Origin: Lachnospiraceae bacterium P6B14
GTDB taxonomy: Bacteria; Bacillota; Clostridia; Lachnospirales; Lachnospiraceae
DNA: 64,000 nt
Assembly (NCBI GenBank): GCA_000687695.1
Contig: JHWZ01000001.1
Span: 186,001 to 250,000 of the forward strand
Direction: 5' to 3'
Positions 51,608 through 64,000 of the stretch are shown in pieces. Positions within the stretch are counted from its first letter, which is position 1, and every line of letters starts with the position of its first letter. Under the pieces are notes generated by a model that was not told the DNA's origin, did no database searches, and was given only the letters and a program-made list of their open reading frames with translations. A program made the translations under genes and the position numbers.

Positions 51608-52216
51608 TCAAGAATTTTCTATCATATCTCTCACGATCCTCCCGACACGCATGGATTCGGCGTATTCGTAGCATTTCTTCAGATTCTTCTTAGATGATTT
51701 CCTGTATGCCTGAAGTATCTCATCAAGCGTTTTTTCGTCGATAGAATCCCTGAACCTGATCGAATCCGCCACGCTTCTGTCGATATCATAGATCTTTATC
51801 GTCACCCCGTTTTTCACGTAGGACGTCATATGGTCCTCGTATCCGTTTTCAGAGAAATAGTGTCTTGAGACCGGAAAGTCCAGCTTCATACCACCTCTGT
51901 CGGTCCTTTTGGTGGCAACAAACAGCTTATCCGGCTCATTTTTCAAAAGCCCGTGATAAAAGCACGCACTCGGGCCACAGATCACAGCCTTCCCATTGGC
52001 CATGCTCGCCTCCAGATATTTGTAGTCCTTTGGCTTTTTGATATTCAAAAATGTCCCCCAGTAGTTTCCGTGAGACACCTTCTCGATATCCCCGTTTTCG
52101 AGAAGCTCCTTAATATGGATCGTTGAAACTCTGTTATCGATCAACGTCCGTGTCGGCAGATAGCCTCCTGCCTTTTCAAAAAGTGAGTAGATTTTTTCGT
52201 AAGTTCTTTTCAGCAT
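51608..52216 (-). CDS. AbiEi-like antitoxin (type IV TA family), orphan
   Basis: A 202-aa cytoplasmic protein. The N-terminal winged-helix part (YEKIYSLFEKAGGYLPTRTL; GDIEKVSHGNYW) and the C-terminal part (YDIDRSVADSIRFR; KTLDEILQAYRKS) match AbiEi antitoxins, which repress their own operon. The usual AbiEii nucleotidyltransferase toxin gene is not found next to it on either side. No clear AGGAGG; AAGAACTTACG lies upstream of the ATG. An isolated regulator is the likely role. Confidence 0.75.
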   Translation of the reverse strand: MLKRTYEKIYSLFEKAGGYLPTRTLIDNRVSTIHIKELLENGDIEKVSHGNYWGTFLNIKKPKDYKYLEASMANGKAVICGPSACFYHGLLKNEPDKLFVATKRTDRGGMKLDFPVSRHYFSENGYEDHMTSYVKNGVTIKIYDIDRSVADSIRFRDSIDEKTLDEILQAYRKSSKKNLKKCYEYAESMRVGRIVRDMIENS

Positions 52217-52313: not shown

Positions 52314-54740
52314 TTACAATACCATAATGTACATATAGTACAACTTTTTGATGATGTTTACATCCTTATATACATGGCGGCAAATAATCTCATATACCTC
52401 CCGGAACCTGAATACCGACTGTTCCGTCAGATCGTCAGGGCCGAATGCCGCATGATATACCATTTCAACGTAGAACCGCATCACCTCTTCGGATACGCCC
52501 AGCGCCTCCGTGAGCTCACCGGTCAGCTCCTCCATCGACTGACCTGTATATCTCACTCCCCTGCTCGTAAAGAGCGGTGTGAGATGCCTGTGCGTCATGC
52601 GGATCCGCCTTCTCTTGTTCTTCATATCAGAGAGGTCCCTCTTGAACAGATACTTTCTGATCCGTCTCTGTCCCTCAGCCACGCCCGCTGCGATGGCCAG
52701 TATCAGAAGTATTATTAGGATGACACCGATGATATTCGAAGAATCCGCCTCATTACTGCCGAGTTCTCCTCCATCGAGTCCTTTCTCATCCTCTTCTTCC
52801 GGATCCTCGTTTCCGTCTATATCCTCAAACTCCATGCTCTCGCCCGGCTTCTCGGTAACCATAGGTGTAGGAGTCGCCAAGGCAGGTGACTTTCCTGCAT
52901 CCATGTATCCGCTGTCATAATTCTCTTCATTTCCGTACTGCTCGCCGTGTCCCGGAGTAACCTCCATAGTCACGAATCCATATCTGCGGTCATAGACCTC
53001 GATCCATGCATGTGCATCGTAGTCAGTTACGATTATCTCTTTTCCTTCACCTTCCTTCAGCTCCTCGGGGCTTACATACAGTCCCTCGACAAACCTTGTC
53101 GGGATCCCGATAGATCTTAACAGGATCGCTGCTGCAGAAGCATAATAAGTACAGTAGCCTTTCTTGCTTTCCTTAAGGAAGTACTCAACAGTATCCCTAC
53201 CCGAAGGAGTCTTGCCCGGCGTATCGGTATATACGGTATCGTGAGATATATAAGACTTCACCGCGCGAAGCACATCGCTGATATCACACTGCCCCTCATC
53301 GTACTGTTTGATAAGAGCCTCGTGTTGAGTTTTGAACTCATCGCAAACATCCTTCAGATCGTCAGGGATCTGCAGATAATATTTCTTGGCAAACTTTTCC
53401 AATGCGTTCATTTTTTCTTCGTATGTTGTCCAGAATACCGGATCGACCAGATCCTCAGATGGAGTGAGCAGCATTCTTCTGATAGCATACGGATAGGTAG
53501 TATAGTACTCCTCGTCATATTCCACGCCCGGAATCCTGGTTTTCAGCTCGCCGTCCTCGCTCGTTTGGAAGCCTGTAGTCGGCAGTACCGGTATCGCGTA
53601 TTTCCCGAATCCGAAGGCAATATTTCTCACATGAAGCTTGCCCATGGACCAGAGATTTTCAACACCGCTTCGTTCGTTATCACCGATATCATTTCTGAGC
53701 TGAACATGATACATATCAGGTGTTATTTTTTTCGAAGTAAGCGCTGCAAGATCCTGTTTGTACTCCGCATCTTCTTTATTTGATTTCCACTTATTATTCT
53801 CATAAACATTGGCCACAAAGCTCTTTAAATATAAGCCGTAGTTCATGTTCACATCACCGGATAATTTTAACAGTGTTTTTCCGGAGTGATTGATCTGAGC
53901 TTTGTTTCCGACCTTTCCGTAGTCTATCGCGGAAGCACCGAAATACGCGCTTATCCACTCGAACACCTCGTCGGGATCCCAGGTCGCCAAAGAAAGAATA
54001 GTGTTCTTTGTCTCAAGTAATTTTTCTTTATTTCTATCATATCTTGAAGGCGGAATAATAATGTATGAAACAAGTCCGCTGACAAGTCCGATACCGATAA
54101 GAATCAACGATAATTTCTGTCTGAGTTTTCTGTCTGCAGAGTTGGTTTTTAACTGTCTTGTTCCGATGATGGATATCAGTATTACAAGGTAAATAAATAC
54201 ATCTATAAATGCCCCTACTCTTCCGACAAAAAGAGGCACGATCATAAACGGTGCGGTGCAGATCATAAATACACTTGATTTTCTTCTTCTATAGAAAAAT
54301 GCACTGATGACCGCCACCATCAAAACTCCCACGATAACCAACACCAGGGTTGTCGAGAAGTTCACACTTATATCGTAACTTTCATAGGTAAGCAGTGAAA
54401 GATTGCTTCCGGTAAAGTTCATAAAAGCTTTTAAAAAGCTGTTTGTTATGGTGATGATTCCCTTTCCGAAATCTTCACCGAAACGTATACCTATAGCAAT
54501 ATAGAAAACAAGCAGGCCTCCTATACCGTAAAGCTTTCCGTGACGAATCGTCTCAAGCACCGAAAACAGCGCGTAAAAAAGTATGGAAGCTATCAAAAGG
54601 AAAACTAAAAACAGTGTACGGTTATATACAAGCTCAAGGCCCGCTGCCGTACAGGTGAGTGCGGAAGCTACACCCAGAAACACCATCATGATCTGGATGA
54701 CTTCCATTAAAGCATTGAATAACTTACTCGACTGCTTCAC
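52314..54740 (-). CDS. Membrane protein with transglutaminase-like domain
   Basis: A protein of about 808 aa. Six or more N-terminal helices (residues about 10-235) are followed by an extracytoplasmic region with a transglutaminase core: SKKGYCTYYASAAAILLRSI (Cys), DYDAHAWIEVY (His) and FVTMEVTPGHG, where the usual Asp is replaced by Glu. A low-complexity acidic linker, one more helix (NIIGVILIILLILAIAAGVA) and a basic C-terminal domain complete it. The start is uncertain: GTG at 54740 or 54752, or TTG at 54743. It overlaps the DUF58 gene, the usual MoxR-DUF58-transglutaminase order. Confidence 0.85.
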   Translation of the reverse strand: MKQSSKLFNALMEVIQIMMVFLGVASALTCTAAGLELVYNRTLFLVFLLIASILFYALFSVLETIRHGKLYGIGGLLVFYIAIGIRFGEDFGKGIITITNSFLKAFMNFTGSNLSLLTYESYDISVNFSTTLVLVIVGVLMVAVISAFFYRRRKSSVFMICTAPFMIVPLFVGRVGAFIDVFIYLVILISIIGTRQLKTNSADRKLRQKLSLILIGIGLVSGLVSYIIIPPSRYDRNKEKLLETKNTILSLATWDPDEVFEWISAYFGASAIDYGKVGNKAQINHSGKTLLKLSGDVNMNYGLYLKSFVANVYENNKWKSNKEDAEYKQDLAALTSKKITPDMYHVQLRNDIGDNERSGVENLWSMGKLHVRNIAFGFGKYAIPVLPTTGFQTSEDGELKTRIPGVEYDEEYYTTYPYAIRRMLLTPSEDLVDPVFWTTYEEKMNALEKFAKKYYLQIPDDLKDVCDEFKTQHEALIKQYDEGQCDISDVLRAVKSYISHDTVYTDTPGKTPSGRDTVEYFLKESKKGYCTYYASAAAILLRSIGIPTRFVEGLYVSPEELKEGEGKEIIVTDYDAHAWIEVYDRRYGFVTMEVTPGHGEQYGNEENYDSGYMDAGKSPALATPTPMVTEKPGESMEFEDIDGNEDPEEEDEKGLDGGELGSNEADSSNIIGVILIILLILAIAAGVAEGQRRIRKYLFKRDLSDMKNKRRRIRMTHRHLTPLFTSRGVRYTGQSMEELTGELTEALGVSEEVMRFYVEMVYHAAFGPDDLTEQSVFRFREVYEIICRHVYKDVNIIKKLYYMYIMVL

Positions 54741-55854
54741 CAAAACTGTCACCTCGTAAATCCATTACTTCCAATCGGTTTCTCGTCAAACCGCTACTCT
54801 GAACACCCGTTGCATCACTTACCGTAAGGTACAAAGCCTGCTCCAACGGCATTCCCTGATCCCATGCCAGATATGCCTCTACAAGTTCTGAAGGGTTTTT
54901 CGTCGGCCTTAAGCTCAATAAATCCTGGAGCATCCACAACAGCTCCTCCTCGTGCTCAACAAGCCTTTCCTCAACCACATCATTTTCTTTGTTATACCAG
55001 ATAAAATGCTGCGGTATCGCATGATCGATCATGTACAATGAGATGGAATATATCCCCTGCACCAAAAGATTTCCGTTTTTATGACGTTCTTCACCCTCTC
55101 CCGGCACACACATATCAATAAAAATGTGAAGCGCCTTGGTAAGCGGCAACGACCCGTCCTTAACCATGAGAGAGCCCGTCTTTGAACTAAGCTTCCAATG
55201 GATGCGCTGTATCTTATCACCATCCGCAAAGTCTCTTATATCGAATATTTCCGACGGATCATCACCCTTTTTATAAGGAGAAAATCTGTCCGAATCCTCA
55301 TCTGTTTCGTTGTACCATCTGTCCTTACCCAGATAAAAATCCTTGGTAGGCGGAACAACCAATATATGCTGTGTGGGATAATTCTTTCCGATATGCCATG
55401 CAAAAATACTGAGATAGTCAAATATCTTGACTCTTTCCACCTTGATCGACAGGTTTCCGCAGTTATCCATCGGGATCACTATACGTCTGTCTCGCTTTCT
55501 GCCGGCATCGACGGAAAAACGAACCTTCATCCGTCCGACCTCGCCTGAAAAGCGGTTTTCGTAGCGTACCTTTGCAATACCCTTTGTTATCGGGAGAATC
55601 TTGTTTCTGTTTTCCAGGGAAAGTGTGACCACTGCACGTGCGGGCTTGTCCATGTCGTCCTTCTCTGTCATGGGATTTTTCGAATCCACACTTGCATCAA
55701 CTCTGGATTTCATGAAAATCAGAAACAGGAACATAAAAATCGGAATACACACAAGAATACCTGCAATCGCAACCGTGCCGAATTCCAGGTAGAATACGCA
55801 TATGACAGCCCCGATCAGACACAAAAGGGCGTAGATCAATGTTCCAAAGGTCAT
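54724..55854 (-). CDS. DUF58 domain membrane-anchored protein
   Basis: A 376-aa protein with two N-terminal helices (residues about 5-47), a beta-rich middle and the DUF58 core FSPYKKGDDPSEIFDIRDFA then GDKIQRIHWKLSSKTGSLMV, related to von Willebrand factor A folds. Partner of MoxR AAA+ ATPases. AGGAGGTAACCC precedes the ATG. It lies 14 bp after the MoxR gene and overlaps the transglutaminase gene. The system is thought to assemble or mature metal- or complex-containing targets (known for the family); the target here is unknown. Confidence 0.9.
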   Translation of the reverse strand: MTFGTLIYALLCLIGAVICVFYLEFGTVAIAGILVCIPIFMFLFLIFMKSRVDASVDSKNPMTEKDDMDKPARAVVTLSLENRNKILPITKGIAKVRYENRFSGEVGRMKVRFSVDAGRKRDRRIVIPMDNCGNLSIKVERVKIFDYLSIFAWHIGKNYPTQHILVVPPTKDFYLGKDRWYNETDEDSDRFSPYKKGDDPSEIFDIRDFADGDKIQRIHWKLSSKTGSLMVKDGSLPLTKALHIFIDMCVPGEGEERHKNGNLLVQGIYSISLYMIDHAIPQHFIWYNKENDVVEERLVEHEEELLWMLQDLLSLRPTKNPSELVEAYLAWDQGMPLEQALYLTVSDATGVQSSGLTRNRLEVMDLRGDSFGEAVE

Positions 55855-55868
55855 GGGTTACCTCCTAG

Positions 55869-56798
55869 TTACGCGAGCTTCGGCGCAGGGATACGTCCCA
55901 CGATCTCCTCGATAACATCTTCCTCTGTGATATGTGCCATACGGGCTTTACCGTTTAGGAGAACTCGGTGGGCAAGAACCGCTCCCGCAACACTCCTGAC
56001 ATCCTCAGGAAGAACGAACGCACGACCTGCGACATATGCGCGCGCTCTGGACATATCCATAAATGCCAATGTTCCACGGGGGCTCACACCGAGCGAAAGC
56101 ATCGCATGACTTCTCGTACCGTCAACTATGCGTGACAGATAAGTAAGAACCTTGTCATCAACATGTATCTGCTTAACCTGCTCCTGCATAGCCACGAGCT
56201 CTCTTTTTGAGATGATCTCGCGAACCGAATCGAGCGGGTTGGTCTCCTGACGCTCCTTTATAAGTCGCATCTCCTCCTCCATAGTAGGATAACCCATGGA
56301 GATACGGATCATGAAACGATCGAGCTGAGACTCCGGAAGAAGCTGGGTTCCCGCGGATCCAACCGGGTTCTGCGTAGCCATAACTATAAACGGAACAGGA
56401 AGCTGTCTGGTCACACCATCTACCGTGACCTGCCCCTCCTCCATAACCTCCAGGAGCGCTGACTGAGTCTTCGTAGAGGTACGGTTGATCTCGTCCGCAA
56501 GAAGCAGGTTACAAAGAATAGCGCCCGGCTTGTACTGGAACTCACCGTCCGCACCGATCATATTGAAGCCGACGACATCCGAAGGCAACACGTCCGGCGT
56601 AAACTGAAGTCTCCTCTCCGTAAGCTCCATCGCTCTCGAAAAAGCGACCGCAAGTGTGGTCTTTCCCACTCCGGGTACATCCTCTATAAGAATGTGCCCA
56701 CCTGCCAGAATCGCCGTCATAACAAGTCTGATCTCGTTATCCTTACCTCTGATAACCTGCGCTACCTCATGTAAGATTTGCTCCGTTCTCTCATTCAT
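55869..56798 (-). CDS. MoxR-family AAA+ ATPase
   Basis: A 309-aa chaperone-like ATPase. Walker A is EDVPGVGKTTLAVAF, Walker B is LLADEINRTSTKTQSALLEV, and sensor 1 is ATQNPVGSAGTQLLPESQLDR, all intact. It lies upstream of DUF58 and transglutaminase genes, the standard trio. AAAGGATAATCAAAACT precedes the ATG. A promoter TTGACG-17-TAAAAT lies at 56890-56862, with three CGTCAAA repeats around the -35. Confidence 0.95.
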   Translation of the reverse strand: MNERTEQILHEVAQVIRGKDNEIRLVMTAILAGGHILIEDVPGVGKTTLAVAFSRAMELTERRLQFTPDVLPSDVVGFNMIGADGEFQYKPGAILCNLLLADEINRTSTKTQSALLEVMEEGQVTVDGVTRQLPVPFIVMATQNPVGSAGTQLLPESQLDRFMIRISMGYPTMEEEMRLIKERQETNPLDSVREIISKRELVAMQEQVKQIHVDDKVLTYLSRIVDGTRSHAMLSLGVSPRGTLAFMDMSRARAYVAGRAFVLPEDVRSVAGAVLAHRVLLNGKARMAHITEEDVIEEIVGRIPAPKLA

Positions 56799-56916: not shown

Positions 56917-58221
56917 TTAACCAACCTTCATCCTAAACTTACGTACTTCTCTCTCGTCCTCAACATCCACCTTTTCAATCCGGCCGCCGAGTCCTTTGAT
57001 CTTGTCCTCGAACCTCTCATATCCTCTTTCGATATAATGTATCTGATCTACAGCGGTGATACCCTCTGCCGCAAGACCTGCCATAACCAGCGCCGCTCCT
57101 GCTCTCAGATCCGGGGCACTCACCTCTGCTCCGGTGAAGTTTTCAACTCCTGTTATAAATGCCGCATTGCCCTCAACGGTTATGTTCGCACCCATACGTC
57201 TGAGCTCACCGACATATTTCAGTCTCGTCTCAAAAATAGTCTCGGTGACGATACTGGTTCCCATAGACAGTGCCAAAAGGGTCGTCATCTGCGGCTGCAT
57301 ATCCGTAGGAAATCCCGGATAAGGCATCGTCTTTACGTTTGCGTATGAAAGTCTCCTGTCTGCTCTGACTCTCACACAATCATCATACTCATCCACCCTG
57401 CATCCGATCTCGGTAAGCTTTGCCGTGATAGCCTCCAAATGCTTCGGGATGACATTTTTAATAAGAACATCTCCCCTTGTAGCCGCCACCATCAGCATGA
57501 AGGTTCCGGCCTCAATCTGATCGGGAATAATGGAATACTCGCTTCCATGGAGCTTCTGTACACCTCTGATCCTGATGGCATCAGTACCTGCACCTCTGAT
57601 GTTCGCCCCCATCGAGTTAAGGAAGTTGGCTACATCTACTATATGCGGCTCCTTGGCCGGGTTTTCAATAATAGTCTTACCCTCCGCCATGCAGGCTGCC
57701 ATCATGATGTTTATTGTAGCGCCCACACTCGGGCAGTCGAGATATATGTGATTGCCATGAAGCTGCTCAGCCTTGGCATCGATCTTTCCATGGTGGATAC
57801 TTACCTTGGCTCCAAGCTGCTCAAAGCCCTTTATATGCTGATCGATCGGTCTGCTTCCTATCTGACAGCCTCCCGGAAGCGCAACCAGCGCTTTTTTGTA
57901 TTTACCGAGAAGGGCACCTACCAGATAGTAAGAGCCTCTGATCTTGCGGATCGCGTCCTGATCAACATTTACATCGTTAATGAGAGCGCCGTTAATACGT
58001 ACCGTGGTCTGATCAAGCCTCTCAACGATGGCACCGATACTTTCAACGGCATCCAAAAGAACACGGACGTCATCCACATCAGGTATATTCTCAATCGTGA
58101 CCGGCTCGTTTGCCATGATGGCAGCGACGATGATACCGAGTGCTGCGTTCTTCGCACCACCTATCACCACTTCTCCGGTCAGGGGTTTTCCACCCCGGAT
58201 CATATACTTCAACATACTCAT
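56917..58221 (-). CDS. murA: UDP-N-acetylglucosamine 1-carboxyvinyltransferase
   Basis: First committed step of peptidoglycan synthesis, 434 aa. The fosfomycin-reactive cysteine is present in ALVALPGGCQIGSRPIDQHI. Further blocks: GGAKNAALGIIVAAIMANEP at the N-terminus and PYPGFPTDMQPQMTTLLALS. No change to Asp at the active-site Cys is seen. GGAGGCTTTTAA precedes the ATG. It is a single gene with a promoter at 58243-58271. Confidence 0.96.
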   Translation of the reverse strand: MSMLKYMIRGGKPLTGEVVIGGAKNAALGIIVAAIMANEPVTIENIPDVDDVRVLLDAVESIGAIVERLDQTTVRINGALINDVNVDQDAIRKIRGSYYLVGALLGKYKKALVALPGGCQIGSRPIDQHIKGFEQLGAKVSIHHGKIDAKAEQLHGNHIYLDCPSVGATINIMMAACMAEGKTIIENPAKEPHIVDVANFLNSMGANIRGAGTDAIRIRGVQKLHGSEYSIIPDQIEAGTFMLMVAATRGDVLIKNVIPKHLEAITAKLTEIGCRVDEYDDCVRVRADRRLSYANVKTMPYPGFPTDMQPQMTTLLALSMGTSIVTETIFETRLKYVGELRRMGANITVEGNAAFITGVENFTGAEVSAPDLRAGAALVMAGLAAEGITAVDQIHYIERGYERFEDKIKGLGGRIEKVDVEDEREVRKFRMKVG

Positions 58222-58304: not shown

Positions 58305-59768
58305 TCAATATACCATCCTTACCTTGTAAGCCAGTTCTTCAGAGAGCTCCGGATATATCTGCAGGAAGCAGTCTATCTCGTCAAACGGACCCGAAAGCAC
58401 TACCACGAATTCGTCTCCAAACTCGTGAATAACCTGCATAAGCTCATCGACAGACTCACGGGTCAGCTCCGCTGCCTCGGTAACAAGCAGGCATCTGCCT
58501 ATCAACCTGTCTATCTGATCCATGAGATGGATCGAGTTCATGCGCTCCGCAGTGATACGCATCACCTTCTGGGCAGAGTTGTAACCGAGCCTCGTGAGCT
58601 CTTTTGAAATCTTTTTCGTCATGGTGAGAGTGATCTTTTCCTCTCCGCCCGCCAGTACGAAATGAGGCGGTTCGAAATCCCTGCGTCGTATCTTTGCCAC
58701 GATATCTCTCGTGGTCCAGTAGCGGATACCGTGATCCGAAACGTCCGCAGGCCCTTCCTCGTAATCATCATCTACCGCAAACATAGCCTCCAGGCGATGA
58801 GCCTTCGAAGGATCGTCGGTCTTTACAGGCTCTCCGACGGTTTCTGCCGGACCGCGCCTGTTCAAATACTGAGCCTCCAGGCTGATATGCTCCTTTTCCC
58901 CTATGGGAGCACCCGATACTGTCTTCGGGATCCCTACACTTTCTATCACCGGAGCATCCGGATCCAGCTGCTCCTGCGGATGAGAAGGCTCCACCTCCAA
59001 CTGCTCAATCATCGTACGTCCTGTCTCGGACAGCATCTCATCAAGCGTTGGTTCCTTGGACTCCTCCACAGGCTGAACATCACTCGACTGCTCCACTATA
59101 CGGCTGACCTCGGATCCGACATGCTCGGAAATCGCATTCTCAATATCCGATTCCGCTTCCATACGGGCTGCCAGGTTTTCTTCTATGATGCCGCCAACCT
59201 TTTTCTCCTCGTGGTCGATCTCCGGCTCCTCATCAGGAAGGATACGCGCTCCACCGAACCACAGATGGAGGTCTGCCATCTCCTGTTTGAAATCATCGAT
59301 ACGGCCTGCCGCCTTATAGAGCTCCGCGAGCTTTTTCCCCCAGATTTCCATGTACTCTTCGGCTTTGAACTCCTCCAGGAGTTTTATTCTTTCATCAGCG
59401 CCCGCATCCATCGCATCAAGCATGGCATATCTCAGTTCAAAATCGTCTGCAACGGCGCCGTCCATTTTTTCGAATTCTTTAAGATAAACCTTTGCGTCCC
59501 CAAACTCGCCTATGCGGATAAGAACGGTTATAAACTCTTTCAGATCGCGACGTACATTCGTAGTATTGATAAGGTGAAGATACGTCTTTTTCATCTCATC
59601 AAAATGACTCGTCTTTTCCTGCGCCAGAGCTATATTTCTCAAATCCTGGACAGAATCTATATCATCGAGAGGAAGACTCTCAGAGAGGCGATAAGCCTCT
59701 TCAAAACTGTTCTCGTTAACCAGCTCGTAAAGAGTCTCTAAGCTTCTTTCGATCTCGCGTCGTTTCAT
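58305..59768 (-). CDS. TPR-like / degenerate CbxX-type AAA+ protein, unrecognised role
   Basis: A 487-aa soluble protein. Residues about 1-170 are helical repeats resembling TPR (LETLYELVNENSFEEAYRLS; AEEYMEIWGKKLAELYKAAG). An acidic disordered linker covers residues 180-330. The last 110 residues follow the CbxX/SpoVK AAA+ pattern, but Walker A reads VLAGGEEKITLTMTKKISKE (no GKT), Walker B reads CLLVTEAAEL (no DE), and the closing block EFVVVLSGPFDEIDCFLQIY matches the normal VIVAGYPDEM-like region. The AAA+ assignment is inference from pattern. It lies 28 bp after the CNBD-like gene, in one operon. Confidence 0.75.
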   Translation of the reverse strand: MKRREIERSLETLYELVNENSFEEAYRLSESLPLDDIDSVQDLRNIALAQEKTSHFDEMKKTYLHLINTTNVRRDLKEFITVLIRIGEFGDAKVYLKEFEKMDGAVADDFELRYAMLDAMDAGADERIKLLEEFKAEEYMEIWGKKLAELYKAAGRIDDFKQEMADLHLWFGGARILPDEEPEIDHEEKKVGGIIEENLAARMEAESDIENAISEHVGSEVSRIVEQSSDVQPVEESKEPTLDEMLSETGRTMIEQLEVEPSHPQEQLDPDAPVIESVGIPKTVSGAPIGEKEHISLEAQYLNRRGPAETVGEPVKTDDPSKAHRLEAMFAVDDDYEEGPADVSDHGIRYWTTRDIVAKIRRRDFEPPHFVLAGGEEKITLTMTKKISKELTRLGYNSAQKVMRITAERMNSIHLMDQIDRLIGRCLLVTEAAELTRESVDELMQVIHEFGDEFVVVLSGPFDEIDCFLQIYPELSEELAYKVRMVY

Positions 59769-59796
59769 GTCAACTCATCCTCCATCAGCGAACAAT

Positions 59797-62091
59797 CTAT
59801 GCTTCCAAAAGGAACTTCCTCGTTTTTTCAATCTCAGGCGGTATGTCACACCCGTTCTTGGTAAACTTATGCATCACGTTAGTGATATTTTTCTCGAGCT
59901 TTTTCTGCTCCATGGTATGTCTCTTCGCGGCATCCGCATAGGATGTCTGCGACACCAGACCGGCGGCGATCTCCTGCGCTATCGGACAGTATGTAAACAG
60001 TATGTCGCGGCTTACCTTGTTGAGCCTCATCGCACCGACCGCTTCCTTGGTGATCCAGTCCGTATAATCCTTGGTAAATACATCCCTGTGACGGTTACCT
60101 GCCTGCGTGAGCTGAGCCTTGACCTTTTCCTTTTTCTCAGGTGACAGATCAGAGTTCTTTTTGTAGAACTGCAGGTAATCGGTATACTCACTTGTAAGTG
60201 ACGGATATCTGAAATTGTTCCAGTTGGCACCCATATCGGTACGACATTTTTCCCAACGGAAATGCGCCATCATCCTGAGTATCATGCCGTCAATATTGTT
60301 TTCGGACAGGATCGGCATGAGCACTCTGGCGTGCGTGACTTTTTTCTTGCCCTCGATGTCCTGCCACATCTGGCATCCGCCGCCGCATACCGGAAACAGA
60401 ATAAAGTCCGGTGTGTATCTGTCGATATTTGAAAAATTGTTTAACTCGATCTCTTCGTAATAAGACCTGATCTCCCTGTAGAAAATGGAGTAGTCGATCT
60501 TTTCGACCTTTCTAACGGCCGCGTTTATCGCAGCGCCGGTCACCGCTGCCGAGGAGAGTGTGGTAAGAATTCCCTCGGAACAAAGCACCGGAACAAAGGT
60601 CGAGATGTTTCCGTTTATCAGACGGTCGGCGTACTTGAAGAGGTTTTCAACCTCGAAGTGCATCTTCGCCTCTCCGTCTGCCATGGCAGCCTCCGCCGCC
60701 TGTTTATTTTTCGCAAAATCTTTTCTGACATGCTCCTCATAATCCTCGTCGAACTCATCCTTCGACGGGAGCTTTCTGCCTTCGTAAATCTCCTTGAGCC
60801 ACTCGACCATCGTATAGACATGACAATCAAGATCGCCCGAGCCCACATCAGGGAGTGAAAGAAGTGTCCTTAAATCCTCCTCGGTCAAAAGCTCCTCGCT
60901 CACATATCCGTAGTTCAAAAAGAGCTTAACAGCCAACGGCGGTTTCGGGTCGACAAAGCTTTTTTTGGCTGCCGCCTCGAACACAACAAAAAACGGTTCC
61001 GTGACCTTTTTCCTGATGGCCATGGTCTCCTTGGTTCTTCCAAACTTATCGGTAAGACGCATGAATGCGTCGAGTGCGTCCGAAAATCCCTTCGACACCT
61101 CGGGATCCACTCCGCTGTAATCCATGATCTGCTGGAACGATCCGTTCAGTGAGCTCAGATCCTGCTCGTCTATCTCCACCTCCGCGTTTACATCGTCCGA
61201 GAGCAGCGCCATGTACATAGCCTGCATATGCGTACGGTTCAGCTTCGGATCAGTGCCGACAGTGTCTATGAGAACCGTCTCTATCTCATCGATCTTTGCT
61301 ATGATCTCATCGACAAGTCCCGAAATACGGTCATTCGTCTGGCCTGCTTTTTTCAGGTCCAAAGCCGTCTTTGTAACGTAGGAGAAAAGATTCTTCTCAT
61401 CCATAATAAGTGAGCGGAAAAACTTAAATACCCACTCTCCGTAGATACGGCATCCGTCGATAAGAGGCGGGAAAAGCTCACACTGCTCCATGTAGTGCCT
61501 GAAGGCGATAAGCGATTTGGATCCCAAAAATGCCCTCTGCGCCTCTACCTCCACACTCGCCGCCTCGAGGTAATAATTAACCCCCGAGGGAAGATGAGGA
61601 TCCTCGATGACATCCTCCGAAAGGCGAGCCAATGACGGGATCTCCTGCGGAACCAGTCCGGAATCCACAGCCTCCTTCATATAGGTCGCATAGCTCTTTA
61701 CGAGAAAATCCTTCATCTCATGCGTCGTCTGCTGAAGCTTGTGGAAGGATTTATACATGTCCCTTATCAAAAAGTTTTGTGACGTGACAAGAAGGCCCCT
61801 GTACTGAGCCTTCCCTTCAATCAGCTTTTTTACGCGCGAGACGTCATTTACCGGAAGCGGATAGACCGTCACGCCCTCGCCTGCTATATAAGTAAAACTG
61901 TGCTCACCACGGAGCACATCACAAATTCCCAAAAAATTACCGCTGCCAAGCGTAACCAAAATACCCGATGAGCGCACAGCTACCCTGCCCTTGAGAATAA
62001 GGGCAACACATGTAAGCTCATCACCCTTCTCAAAGATAACGGTACCCTTTGCGACCGGGGTGGTTTCGTTGATAGTTAATTCAGCGGACAT
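59797..62091 (-). CDS. Large protein with degenerate cyclic-nucleotide-binding-like domain
   Basis: A 764-aa soluble protein. Residues about 10-105 have the beta-barrel rhythm of a CNBD (AKGTVIFEKGDELTCVALIL; LGSGNFLGICDVLRGEHSFT), but the phosphate-binding Glu and Arg of the usual GEF(F)GE...R-A cassette are absent, so cAMP binding is unlikely. The remaining 650 residues are mostly helical and unknown, with a CGGGCQMWQD motif near residue 580 and a conserved-looking FRWEKCRTDMGANWNNFRYP segment. AGGAGAACCG precedes the ATG. It is the first gene of a pair with the pseudo-AAA protein. Confidence 0.8.
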   Translation of the reverse strand: MSAELTINETTPVAKGTVIFEKGDELTCVALILKGRVAVRSSGILVTLGSGNFLGICDVLRGEHSFTYIAGEGVTVYPLPVNDVSRVKKLIEGKAQYRGLLVTSQNFLIRDMYKSFHKLQQTTHEMKDFLVKSYATYMKEAVDSGLVPQEIPSLARLSEDVIEDPHLPSGVNYYLEAASVEVEAQRAFLGSKSLIAFRHYMEQCELFPPLIDGCRIYGEWVFKFFRSLIMDEKNLFSYVTKTALDLKKAGQTNDRISGLVDEIIAKIDEIETVLIDTVGTDPKLNRTHMQAMYMALLSDDVNAEVEIDEQDLSSLNGSFQQIMDYSGVDPEVSKGFSDALDAFMRLTDKFGRTKETMAIRKKVTEPFFVVFEAAAKKSFVDPKPPLAVKLFLNYGYVSEELLTEEDLRTLLSLPDVGSGDLDCHVYTMVEWLKEIYEGRKLPSKDEFDEDYEEHVRKDFAKNKQAAEAAMADGEAKMHFEVENLFKYADRLINGNISTFVPVLCSEGILTTLSSAAVTGAAINAAVRKVEKIDYSIFYREIRSYYEEIELNNFSNIDRYTPDFILFPVCGGGCQMWQDIEGKKKVTHARVLMPILSENNIDGMILRMMAHFRWEKCRTDMGANWNNFRYPSLTSEYTDYLQFYKKNSDLSPEKKEKVKAQLTQAGNRHRDVFTKDYTDWITKEAVGAMRLNKVSRDILFTYCPIAQEIAAGLVSQTSYADAAKRHTMEQKKLEKNITNVMHKFTKNGCDIPPEIEKTRKFLLEA

Positions 62092-62114
62092 CGGTTCTCC
62101 TCATGTATAAATAT

Positions 62115-62210
62115 CTGTTCGCGTATCGACGCTCTCTTCACAGAACTACAGATGGACTTCCGGAAGCATGCTTCCGGCTTCCATCTGCAGTTCCGCGCAT
62201 ACGCGAACAG
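62115..62210. repeat. 96-bp nested hairpin element (element E)
   Basis: The perfect 12-bp outer arms CTGTTCGCGTAT (62115-62126, 62199-62210) enclose CAGATGGA (62149-62156, 62180-62187) and the perfect CCGGAAGC-AT-GCTTCCGG hairpin (62160-62177). It lies between the SRP RNA and the CNBD-like gene and may act as an RNA processing or termination site. Confidence 0.85.
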
Positions 62211-62227
62211 TAGTCTGTATATCAAAT

Positions 62228-62490
62228 CCGTGCGCCTCACTTCGAATCTGATCCACCGGACGTTACCACAGCAGTTAACTCGGTCCAGGTGACCCCGCGA
62301 CACACAAGGAGCATCGCTTAGTGCTGCTTCCGTCAGGACCTGACACGGTTCACGAGTCCCTGTTGCACAGGACCCAAACGTCAACGCCACTTTCCGTGGG
62401 CAGCTCCCAAAGATCAAACCCTCCATGAGACAACACCCCTGCTAGAGCGGATTGCAGGTACAGGGCACCGCTAACTCCCCGGCTGCACGG
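62228..62490 (-). ncRNA. ffs: Signal recognition particle RNA (long Gram-positive type)
   Basis: RNA scaffold of the signal recognition particle, about 263 nt, binding Ffh and, through the Alu domain, the ribosome. The minus strand has the Alu-domain start GCCGGGGAGTTAGCGGTGCC then CTGTACCTGCAATCCGCTCT, and the conserved helix-8 tip GTCAGGTCCTGACGGAAGCA then GCACTAAGCG. The ends pair (CCGTGC with GCACGG). Bases 62228-62490 are taken from that pairing. It starts 15 bp after the stop of the HD-GYP gene. No protein is encoded here. Confidence 0.93.
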
Positions 62491-62505: not shown

Positions 62506-64000
62506 TTACTCTTTTCCACTGTTGCTCAGATCGGCAGAATCATAATGGATAGCTATCTGTTTTTTGTCGTACATCTTGTAGAACTCCATCATGATACGAT
62601 CTGTCACCACGTGTACCTGATCTTCATCCATATTGAGCAGAAGAACGATACGCTGAGTCGCGCTGTACTTCGTTGTCGCATCCACACTTCGAATGGACTT
62701 GAGTATCGCACGCTCAAGTATGGTCATCACGCGTTCTGTCTCATCGACGGTTACTCTATGCTCCTGCTCGCTCATCAGTGTAAACAGGAGAAGTCTCACG
62801 TGCTGATGGTTGCGTTCCGCAACATCGGTGATGTAATTGAGCATCGTTGTGAACGCCGGAAGGTCGACTTCAAGGCCTCCCTTGTCACGTTTACGATTCT
62901 TCAGGACAGATACCAAAGCGCGAAGGTCGGCACTCGCCTTTTCCTGACGCTCGATCTCTTCCTGTCCGCGCCAATGGATATAATATCCATCCTCACTCTG
63001 ATGCTTAGCTACGTAAAGCGCCTTATCCGCACGCTCGTAAACTACGTTGAACTCTTCCTTCTCGTGGTCGATCATGGCGATACCGATCGAAACGTTCAGC
63101 TTGCCGAGCGCCACCTGTTCATTTTTCCTGGCATTCAGCTTCTCACGGAACTTCTCCGCCATACGTGTCGCATGCTCAGGTGTGAGCACTCTCGGGAACA
63201 CAGCCACAAACTCGTCCGCGCCGAATCTGGCCACGATACCCTTCTCCCTGAAGGAAGCGATAAGCTTTGCCACGGTCTGCAGATAAATATCGCCGACCAT
63301 GTAACCCTCTGTCTCGTTTACCACATGGAACTGGTCTATATCGAAGATGAACAGGGTTCCCTGTCCCTGACGTGTTGTCTCCTGCAAAAGCTTTAAGCCG
63401 TAATTTCTGTTGTAAGCGCCGGTCAGCTCGTCGTGCATGTAGTTGTTTGCAAGCTGCTCCTCCTGCTTTTCCATGACACGGGAGAGAAGCTCTGTCGCCT
63501 CGCGAACCTCCTTCGGCTCCTCGTAATGCTCTTCCTGGATGAGGCGTCCCTGCTTGAGGAGGTTGAGCATGGCAGTTCCGGCTTCGGGATCGAACTGGGT
63601 CCCGATTCCCTTCTCGATCTCCTCCATGACGATATCGGGATCGAGTCTGTTTCTGTAAACACGGGTGCTGGTCATCGCGTCATACGCATCCGCCACCGCG
63701 ATGATACGTGCGATCTTCGGAATCTCATCTCCCTCGAGTCCGTCAGGATAGCCCTTGCCGTCATAACGCTCGTGGTGATGCTTCGCACCGACATCTATCT
63801 CAGGGATCATACCGATATCCTTGAGGATATCCGCACCGATCACCGTATGATTCTTCATCAGCTGATACTCATCATCGGTAAGCTTTCCGGGCTTGTTAAG
63901 AACAGAATCCGGCACACCGATCTTTCCGATGTCGTGAAGCAACGCGATAAACTTGATGTCCGCGATCTCACTCTCAGAGTATCCGAGCTCCTTCGCGATG
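62506..64000 (-). CDS. HD-GYP and GGDEF domain protein (5' end outside window)
   Basis: Cyclic-di-GMP turnover protein cut by the right edge; 497 residues are visible. An N-terminal HD-GYP domain (FIALLHDIGKIGVPDSVLNK; HHERYDGKGYPDGLEGDEIP) should hydrolyse c-di-GMP. It is followed by a GGDEF domain whose signature reads FGADEF, a tolerated variant that may still be active, with the upstream DELTGAYNRNYG. About 120 C-terminal residues are unknown. The SRP RNA lies just downstream. Combined domains suggest regulated or bifunctional activity. Confidence 0.9.
   Translation of the reverse strand, partial: IAKELGYSESEIADIKFIALLHDIGKIGVPDSVLNKPGKLTDDEYQLMKNHTVIGADILKDIGMIPEIDVGAKHHHERYDGKGYPDGLEGDEIPKIARIIAVADAYDAMTSTRVYRNRLDPDIVMEEIEKGIGTQFDPEAGTAMLNLLKQGRLIQEEHYEEPKEVREATELLSRVMEKQEEQLANNYMHDELTGAYNRNYGLKLLQETTRQGQGTLFIFDIDQFHVVNETEGYMVGDIYLQTVAKLIASFREKGIVARFGADEFVAVFPRVLTPEHATRMAEKFREKLNARKNEQVALGKLNVSIGIAMIDHEKEEFNVVYERADKALYVAKHQSEDGYYIHWRGQEEIERQEKASADLRALVSVLKNRKRDKGGLEVDLPAFTTMLNYITDVAERNHQHVRLLLFTLMSEQEHRVTVDETERVMTILERAILKSIRSVDATTKYSATQRIVLLLNMDEDQVHVVTDRIMMEFYKMYDKKQIAIHYDSADLSNSGKE

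Follow-up and report, generated by a model that had tools for sequence, protein, structure and literature searches.

P1 and P2, a pseudo-AAA protein and a degenerate CNBD protein of Lachnospiraceae, as candidate partners of a nuclease-less JetABC cluster

Structural maintenance of chromosomes (SMC) motors of bacteria occur both with and without a nuclease. Wadjet systems are anti-plasmid SMC machines in which JetABC works with the nuclease JetD, and MksBEF of Pseudomonas aeruginosa is described as comprising SMC, kleisin and KITE proteins and no nuclease (PMC10586767). The CbbX/SpoVK/EccA clade of AAA+ proteins acts on enzymes; its characterised members are described as dedicated chaperones, SpoVK as the one activating MurG (PMC10659427). 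EccA is described with N-terminal tetratricopeptide repeats (TPRs) and CbbX with a C-terminal lid, a four-helix bundle that binds RuBP (ribulose bisphosphate). Here we analyse two adjacent genes in a 64,000-nucleotide stretch (the window) of Lachnospiraceae bacterium P6B14 (GenBank assembly GCA_000687695.1, contig JHWZ01000001.1, positions 186,001–250,000). They encode P1, in which TPRs precede a CbbX-type AAA+ core, and P2, which begins with a cyclic-nucleotide-binding domain (CNBD). Our leading, still tentative, explanation assigns P1 and P2 as accessory proteins to a JetABC (Wadjet type III/MksBEF-like) SMC cluster of Lachnospiraceae that is chromosomal and has no nuclease. In the titles and abstract openings listed for open-licence literature on Wadjet, MksBEF, JetABC and CbbX, neither protein is described as an accessory gene.

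Two conserved proteins that have lost their nucleotide sites

The two open reading frames (ORFs) are at the positions given by an earlier, sequence-only reading of the window:

59797–62091, minus strand: P2, 764 residues; degenerate CNBD (~1–93), CRP-like long helix (95–143), helical region, C-terminal domain (~300–764)
58305–59768, minus strand: P1, 487 residues; TPR (1–171), acidic linker, CbbX/SpoVK-type AAA core (~349–485) without Walker A, Walker B or lid

They are separated by 28 bp, and a Shine–Dalgarno-like GGAGGA precedes P1.

P1 consists of TPR helices (residues 1–171) and a five-strand P-loop core (~349–485) that ends after its fifth strand; the acidic linker between them is modelled at low confidence and is probably disordered. 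The first fold match returned by Foldseek is CbbX (E = 1.2e-5), and a profile of the P1 family hits CbbX (5.8e-27) and EccA1 (1.3e-15). GGEEKITL stands in the place of Walker A and LLVTEA in that of Walker B. The sequence-only reading had described a TPR-like protein with a CbxX-type AAA+ domain lacking both Walker motifs; this is borne out, and the lid is absent as well.

Ninety P1 homologues were compared: 46 from P2–P1 loci, 24 standing alone, 13 from JetC–P1 loci and 7 from P2–JetABC–P1 loci. (Locus L154 is counted as standing alone in the tree, Walker and neighbour counts; it is a P2–ABC–P1 locus whose ABC gene is split into two ORFs.) As judged from the motifs listed, the canonical Walker B D-E is missing from the aligned position in all 90. 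Walker A (GxxxxGK[ST]) is intact in 51, the window P1 not among them, and 64 extend for more than 60 residues beyond the core, where the window P1 has no further residues and no lid. By arrangement, Walker A is intact in 4/13 JetC–P1 loci and 5/7 P2–JetABC–P1 loci versus 17/24 stand-alone and 25/46 P2–P1 loci; the idea that JetABC-linked P1s preserve an intact ATPase was rejected on these counts.

P2 carries a Pfam CNBD match at residues 13–86 (1e-8). Its AlphaFold model is confident (mean predicted local distance difference test score 87.9, predicted template modelling score 0.61) and comprises a barrel, a 49-residue helix (95–143), a helical region and a mixed C-terminal domain. When the whole model was searched against the PDB with Foldseek, only CNBD proteins appeared among the 50 best matches listed (810 weaker ones lie beyond), and sequence and fold thus agree on a CNBD barrel. 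The positions contacting the cAMP phosphate, which we take to be those of CRP E72 and R82, keep the glutamate in 1 and the arginine in 2 of 128 homologues (6 of 134 rows, truncated or without the CNBD, were left out). The earlier description of a CNBD-like barrel stripped of its cAMP-contact residues therefore holds. The same reading regarded most of the larger protein as being of unknown fold. Pfam finds nothing else above its cut-offs in the window P2, no second domain occurs in more than 4 of 36 P2 members among the 25 Pfam families listed, and the fold has no match in a viral library at E ≤ 0.001. The C-terminal domain (~300–764) is conserved and has no Pfam family. The C-terminal half also occurs as stand-alone proteins of 469–476 residues (L207–L211) in other families of the phylum; the two of these homologues examined have no Pfam match, and the neighbours of all five, inspected by eye, do not recur except in the near-identical pair L207/L208.

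Both genes are under purifying selection and are not decaying. In comparison with L118, the nearest relative, the ratio of non-synonymous to synonymous substitution rates (dN/dS) is 0.023 in P2 and 0.054 in the 294 available codons of P1. In the single comparison that covers it, with L119, the dead AAA core is the best-conserved part of P1 (81% identity, versus 62% for the TPR and 59% for the linker); synonymous sites are saturated in core and TPR, where identity alone was compared. The AAA+ domain of the window P1 is thus under strong selection despite the loss of its whole nucleotide site and lid. The predicted structures agree with the CNBD and CbbX folds assigned from sequence, and conserved, selected folds without nucleotide sites are consistent with the scaffold roles that the sequence-only reading had proposed, or with adaptor roles.

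JetABC clusters beside P1 and P2

In relatives, seven loci show the order P2, JetA, JetB, JetC, P1 in one orientation and with short gaps; an eighth P2–JetABC cluster (L041) is cut by a contig end. At L040, PADLOC calls JetA3, JetB3 and JetC3 (1e-103 to 0), with P2 upstream and P1 downstream; the Jet labels in other loci come from profiles built from the L040 proteins. Gaps from P2 to JetA measure −4 to 116 bp in 8 loci. Of the 18 JetC–P1 pairs measured, which come from 16 distinct loci (two counted twice), 15 have gaps of −74 to 78 bp. A genome-contig scan (80 loci, best matches only, biased towards the window) holds six loci with P2–JetA–JetB–JetC, and P1 follows JetC in all six; at L180 a gene like the ABC ATPase of L039 lies between JetC and P1. 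These six and L040 are the seven complete clusters. Adjacency throughout is by our own ORF calls (greedy, at least 60 residues; ORFs below 90 residues mostly ignored).

Among 150 genomes of the family, 21 carry JetC3 at 990 bits or more. P1 follows JetC in 14 of them, directly in 11 and after one intervening gene in three (a Mur ligase gene in L093 and L094, an ABC-type ATPase gene in L040); in one further genome the contig ends inside JetC. Pfam finds JetD_C on none of the 21 JetC contigs, and another contig carries one in 5 of these genomes. A divergent JetC class (123–190 bits) occurs in 11 more genomes, with JetD within a few kilobases in 10 and the best P1 place on another contig or more than 1 Mb away in all 11; these loci were compared by coordinates, L097 alone being read gene by gene. 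JetABC loci of the family therefore fall into two classes, one JetD-linked (10/11) and one P1-linked without JetD (14/21). The window genome belongs to neither: its best JetC match reaches 19 bits, so that this JetC was not found by profile (JetA and JetB were not searched there), it has no JetD_C match, and a canonical SMC is present. Wadjet models of PADLOC match neither the window P1 nor P2, and none of 52 P1 members is among the matches listed.

The Walker B motif of JetC reads IDNPF or LDNPF in 28 of 29 proteins read (L040, L074, L078–L097, L156, L168, L175, L179, L180 and L197), the divergent, JetD-linked L097 included; L041 is cut before the motif. SMC proteins usually have a catalytic glutamate where this motif has asparagine.

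P1 was found in 140 of the 150 family genomes and P2 in 46. A second search of 11 genomes with the P1 profile, five of which had earlier given no match, found a best match of 4e-41 or better in every one, compared with ~1e-19 to 1e-26 for further AAA-only matches; in several (G040, G070, G106, G129) the TPR and AAA portions are split between reading frames. At the level of the order, P1 occurs in 14 of 146 genomes (E ≤ 1e-35), all from the family of the window, of which one member (G177, by list order) gave no match. P2 occurs in 41 of 196 genomes, seven other families included, and in 9 of 299 genomes of a phylum sample, five of these matches being the C-terminal half alone (469–476 residues).

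In a set of 134 distinct P2 loci that is biased towards the window, P1 adjoins P2 in 57. In the 36 of 46 P2-bearing family genomes whose P2 locus was read (window included), the arrangement is P2–P1 in 9 (two with an ABC ATPase gene in between), P2–JetABC in 2 and neither in 25. The two-gene module of the sequence-only reading thus recurs as a neighbourhood, but P1 and P2 do not form an obligate pair: their homologues often occur apart, and the pairing is not exclusive, as JetABC adjoins P1 in other genomes.

These distributions bear on an alternative that we consider unlikely, in which P1 and P2 are functionally unrelated and became neighbours when JetABC was deleted from between them at a conserved locus. 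It would fit the 25 of 36 genomes in which neither P1 nor JetABC stands beside P2, the majority of genomes that carry P1 without P2, and the reach of P2 into other families of the order, where P1 was not found. It is opposed by the persistence of closely spaced P2–P1 pairs (34 of 45 gaps below 100 bp) in many diverged lineages and by the 9 of 46 P2–P1 loci in which an ABC ATPase gene has come between the two with no further parting. This ABC-transporter-type gene lies between P2 and P1 at L039, L044, L152, L155, L158, L160, L162, L188 and L194, and at L040 between JetC and P1.

The window locus and its history

The genes and sites around the pair are:

62506–63999, minus strand: HD-GYP/GGDEF gene, cut by the window end; separated from P2 by the SRP RNA gene
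62228–62490, minus strand: bacterial large signal recognition particle (SRP) RNA gene (Rfam RF01854, 190.9 bits, E = 1.4e-32), directly upstream of P2
58271–58243: promoter-like site preceding murA; consensus match only (17 found in the region versus 14.7 expected)
56917–58221, minus strand: murA (NCBIfam NF009470, 5.8e-176), a recurring neighbour downstream of P1

A 116-residue ORF at 62076–62426, overlapping the SRP RNA gene, is probably spurious and was disregarded.

The SRP RNA gene lies upstream of P2 in 10 of 11 searched loci without JetABC (the exception is L150) and in 4 of 8 searched P2–JetABC loci. Another arrangement runs SRP RNA, dnaX, two genes of ybaB and recR size, JetABC and P1 (L078, L083; at L081 an additional gene precedes dnaX), and is found at L071 without JetABC. 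SRP RNA was found in 4 of 8 searched loci of this dnaX type, the remaining stretches beginning near or at the gene before dnaX; the identity of dnaX was tested at L071, and the ybaB and recR labels follow from size and order after dnaX. In a midpoint-rooted FastTree phylogeny of P1, JetC–P1 loci fall on both sides of the root, and in the P2 tree the P2–JetABC loci split into two groups, both nested in one clade together with P2–P1 loci. With the rooted tree and the SRP RNA locus common to both arrangements, JetABC–P1 behind SRP RNA is the likelier old state. The window pair is most simply what remains after loss of JetABC, because relatives carry P2–JetABC–P1 and this JetC is missing from the window genome. 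Alternatively, JetABC may have entered between P2 and P1 several times independently, which would likewise indicate a functional link.

The sequence-only reading had raised a signalling role through the adjacent HD-GYP/GGDEF gene. That gene is confirmed by Pfam, and two close relatives, L119 and L121, have an orthologue in front of SRP RNA and P2. A separate HD-domain gene (cluster c37; one member tested) lies near murA in 16 of 46 P2–P1 loci. A scaffold for cyclic di-GMP-related signalling that works with the HD-GYP/GGDEF protein could draw on both observations, yet we regard it as highly improbable: the SRP RNA gene intervenes between the HD-GYP gene and P2, of the 122 P2 loci that have upstream genes, just 5 show an HD-GYP match within three genes upstream (a weak one in two of the five), and c37 is encoded on the opposite strand. 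The link of the HD-GYP/GGDEF gene to P2 is weak; we judge this gene a neighbour kept in close relatives only and not part of the module, and a signalling role of P1 and P2 across the family is not indicated.

The downstream side bears on the main rival. In it, P1 is the family's own branch of the SpoVK/CbbX/EccA clade of enzyme chaperones, its task is to bind or activate an enzyme (in the P2 clade MurA, elsewhere GlgB or GlgP), and adjacency to JetABC is secondary; we rate this as rather doubtful. The profile matches to CbbX and EccA1, the chaperone function of the clade members characterised in the source cited above, with MurG as the target of SpoVK, and the position of murA within four genes of P1 in 32 of 46 P2–P1 loci speak for it, as do GlgB near P1 in 12 of 24 stand-alone loci and the Mur ligase gene between JetC and P1 in L093 and L094. 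The P1s would be poor ATPases, however, with Walker B D-E in 0 of 90 and Walker A in 51, and the window P1 has neither nucleotide site nor lid; P1 as an active chaperone is disfavoured because D-E is absent in all 90. Proximity to murA may also be mere inherited neighbourhood, and a promoter-like site precedes murA. P1 may still have a binding-only role in the same enzyme pathway. The neighbour counts cover all 46 P2–P1, 24 stand-alone and 13 JetC–P1 rows and one of the 7 P2–JetABC–P1 rows; the GlgB, GlgP, TadA, pyrophosphatase and ABC labels come from one member tested each, and those of amylase and KsgA were given by eye. At L099–L117, P1 lies beside glycogen genes with neither JetABC nor P2; GlgB occurs in 12 and GlgP in 4 of the 24 stand-alone rows.

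Beyond murA, the minus strand of the window carries a MoxR-type AAA gene, a gene without Pfam match (54724–55854, labelled DUF58 by eye only) and a transglutaminase gene (52314–56798 in all). Relatives of this trio stand directly after P2 at L060 and two to three genes after JetABC at L084, L085 and L091. A 202-residue protein follows (51608–52216, minus strand), with no confident family and an AbiEi-like antitoxin resemblance seen by eye only.

Several observations weigh against P1 and P2 as JetABC accessories. P1 is present in 140 of 150 genomes versus 21 for this JetC, and must therefore mostly work without JetABC; because almost every genome of the family has P1, its co-occurrence with JetC is uninformative. 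P2 is only weakly enriched in genomes with JetC (10/21 versus 36/129), and this was not used as support. P1 does not follow JetC in 6 of 21 JetC3 genomes (in G131 it lies ~8 kb downstream), and P1–murA and P1–glgB neighbourhoods recur too; genes at a housekeeping locus can stay syntenic even if they share no function. The Pfam model would not detect a JetD that has diverged too far, and the trees cannot separate gain from loss, the loss reading resting on midpoint rooting and the shared SRP RNA locus.

We nevertheless infer that P1 and P2 are non-catalytic adaptors, which would serve JetABC where it is present and another client otherwise. The TPR array and pseudo-AAA core of P1 would form a non-hydrolysing adaptor, and P2 would dimerise through the long helix after its CNBD and present its conserved C-terminal domain. 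With JetABC present, the two may regulate or position the SMC motor; where JetABC is absent, they may retain another binding job that needs no nucleotide.

Comparison with known systems

Two large uncharacterised protein families of Lachnospiraceae are here linked to an SMC motor, and the two JetABC classes of the family make it possible to test directly how an SMC machine that acts against plasmids can lose its nuclease and serve another purpose. A bolder proposal, possible although we lean against it, is a distinct Wadjet-type SMC branch in Lachnospiraceae in which P1 replaces JetD and P2 is added in one clade, so that a machine that cuts plasmids becomes one that regulates or organises the chromosome; both non-catalytic subunits could then outlive the motor and take on a nucleotide-independent job.

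P2 resembles CRP/FNR-type CNBD proteins in its barrel followed by a long helix, and differs from them in lacking the cAMP-contact residues, in its large C-terminal part without a Pfam family and in having no recognised DNA-binding domain. The C-terminal domain of P1 belongs with the CbbX/SpoVK/EccA clade by sequence profile and fold, and P1 shares N-terminal TPRs with EccA; unlike that clade, P1s lack the Walker B D-E in 90 of 90 cases, have a long linker and, in the window, have neither Walker A nor lid. The relatives' cluster is like Wadjet type III in the JetA3, JetB3 and JetC3 of L040, flanked by P2 upstream and P1 downstream, and unlike it in having no JetD_C on the JetC contig in 21 of 21 relatives; the window genome itself lacks this JetC. 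In composition it is also like the MksBEF-type, JetD-less SMC complexes, sharing SMC, kleisin and KITE genes without a nuclease, and to this set the JetABC cluster of the relatives adds a TPR–AAA protein and a CNBD protein.

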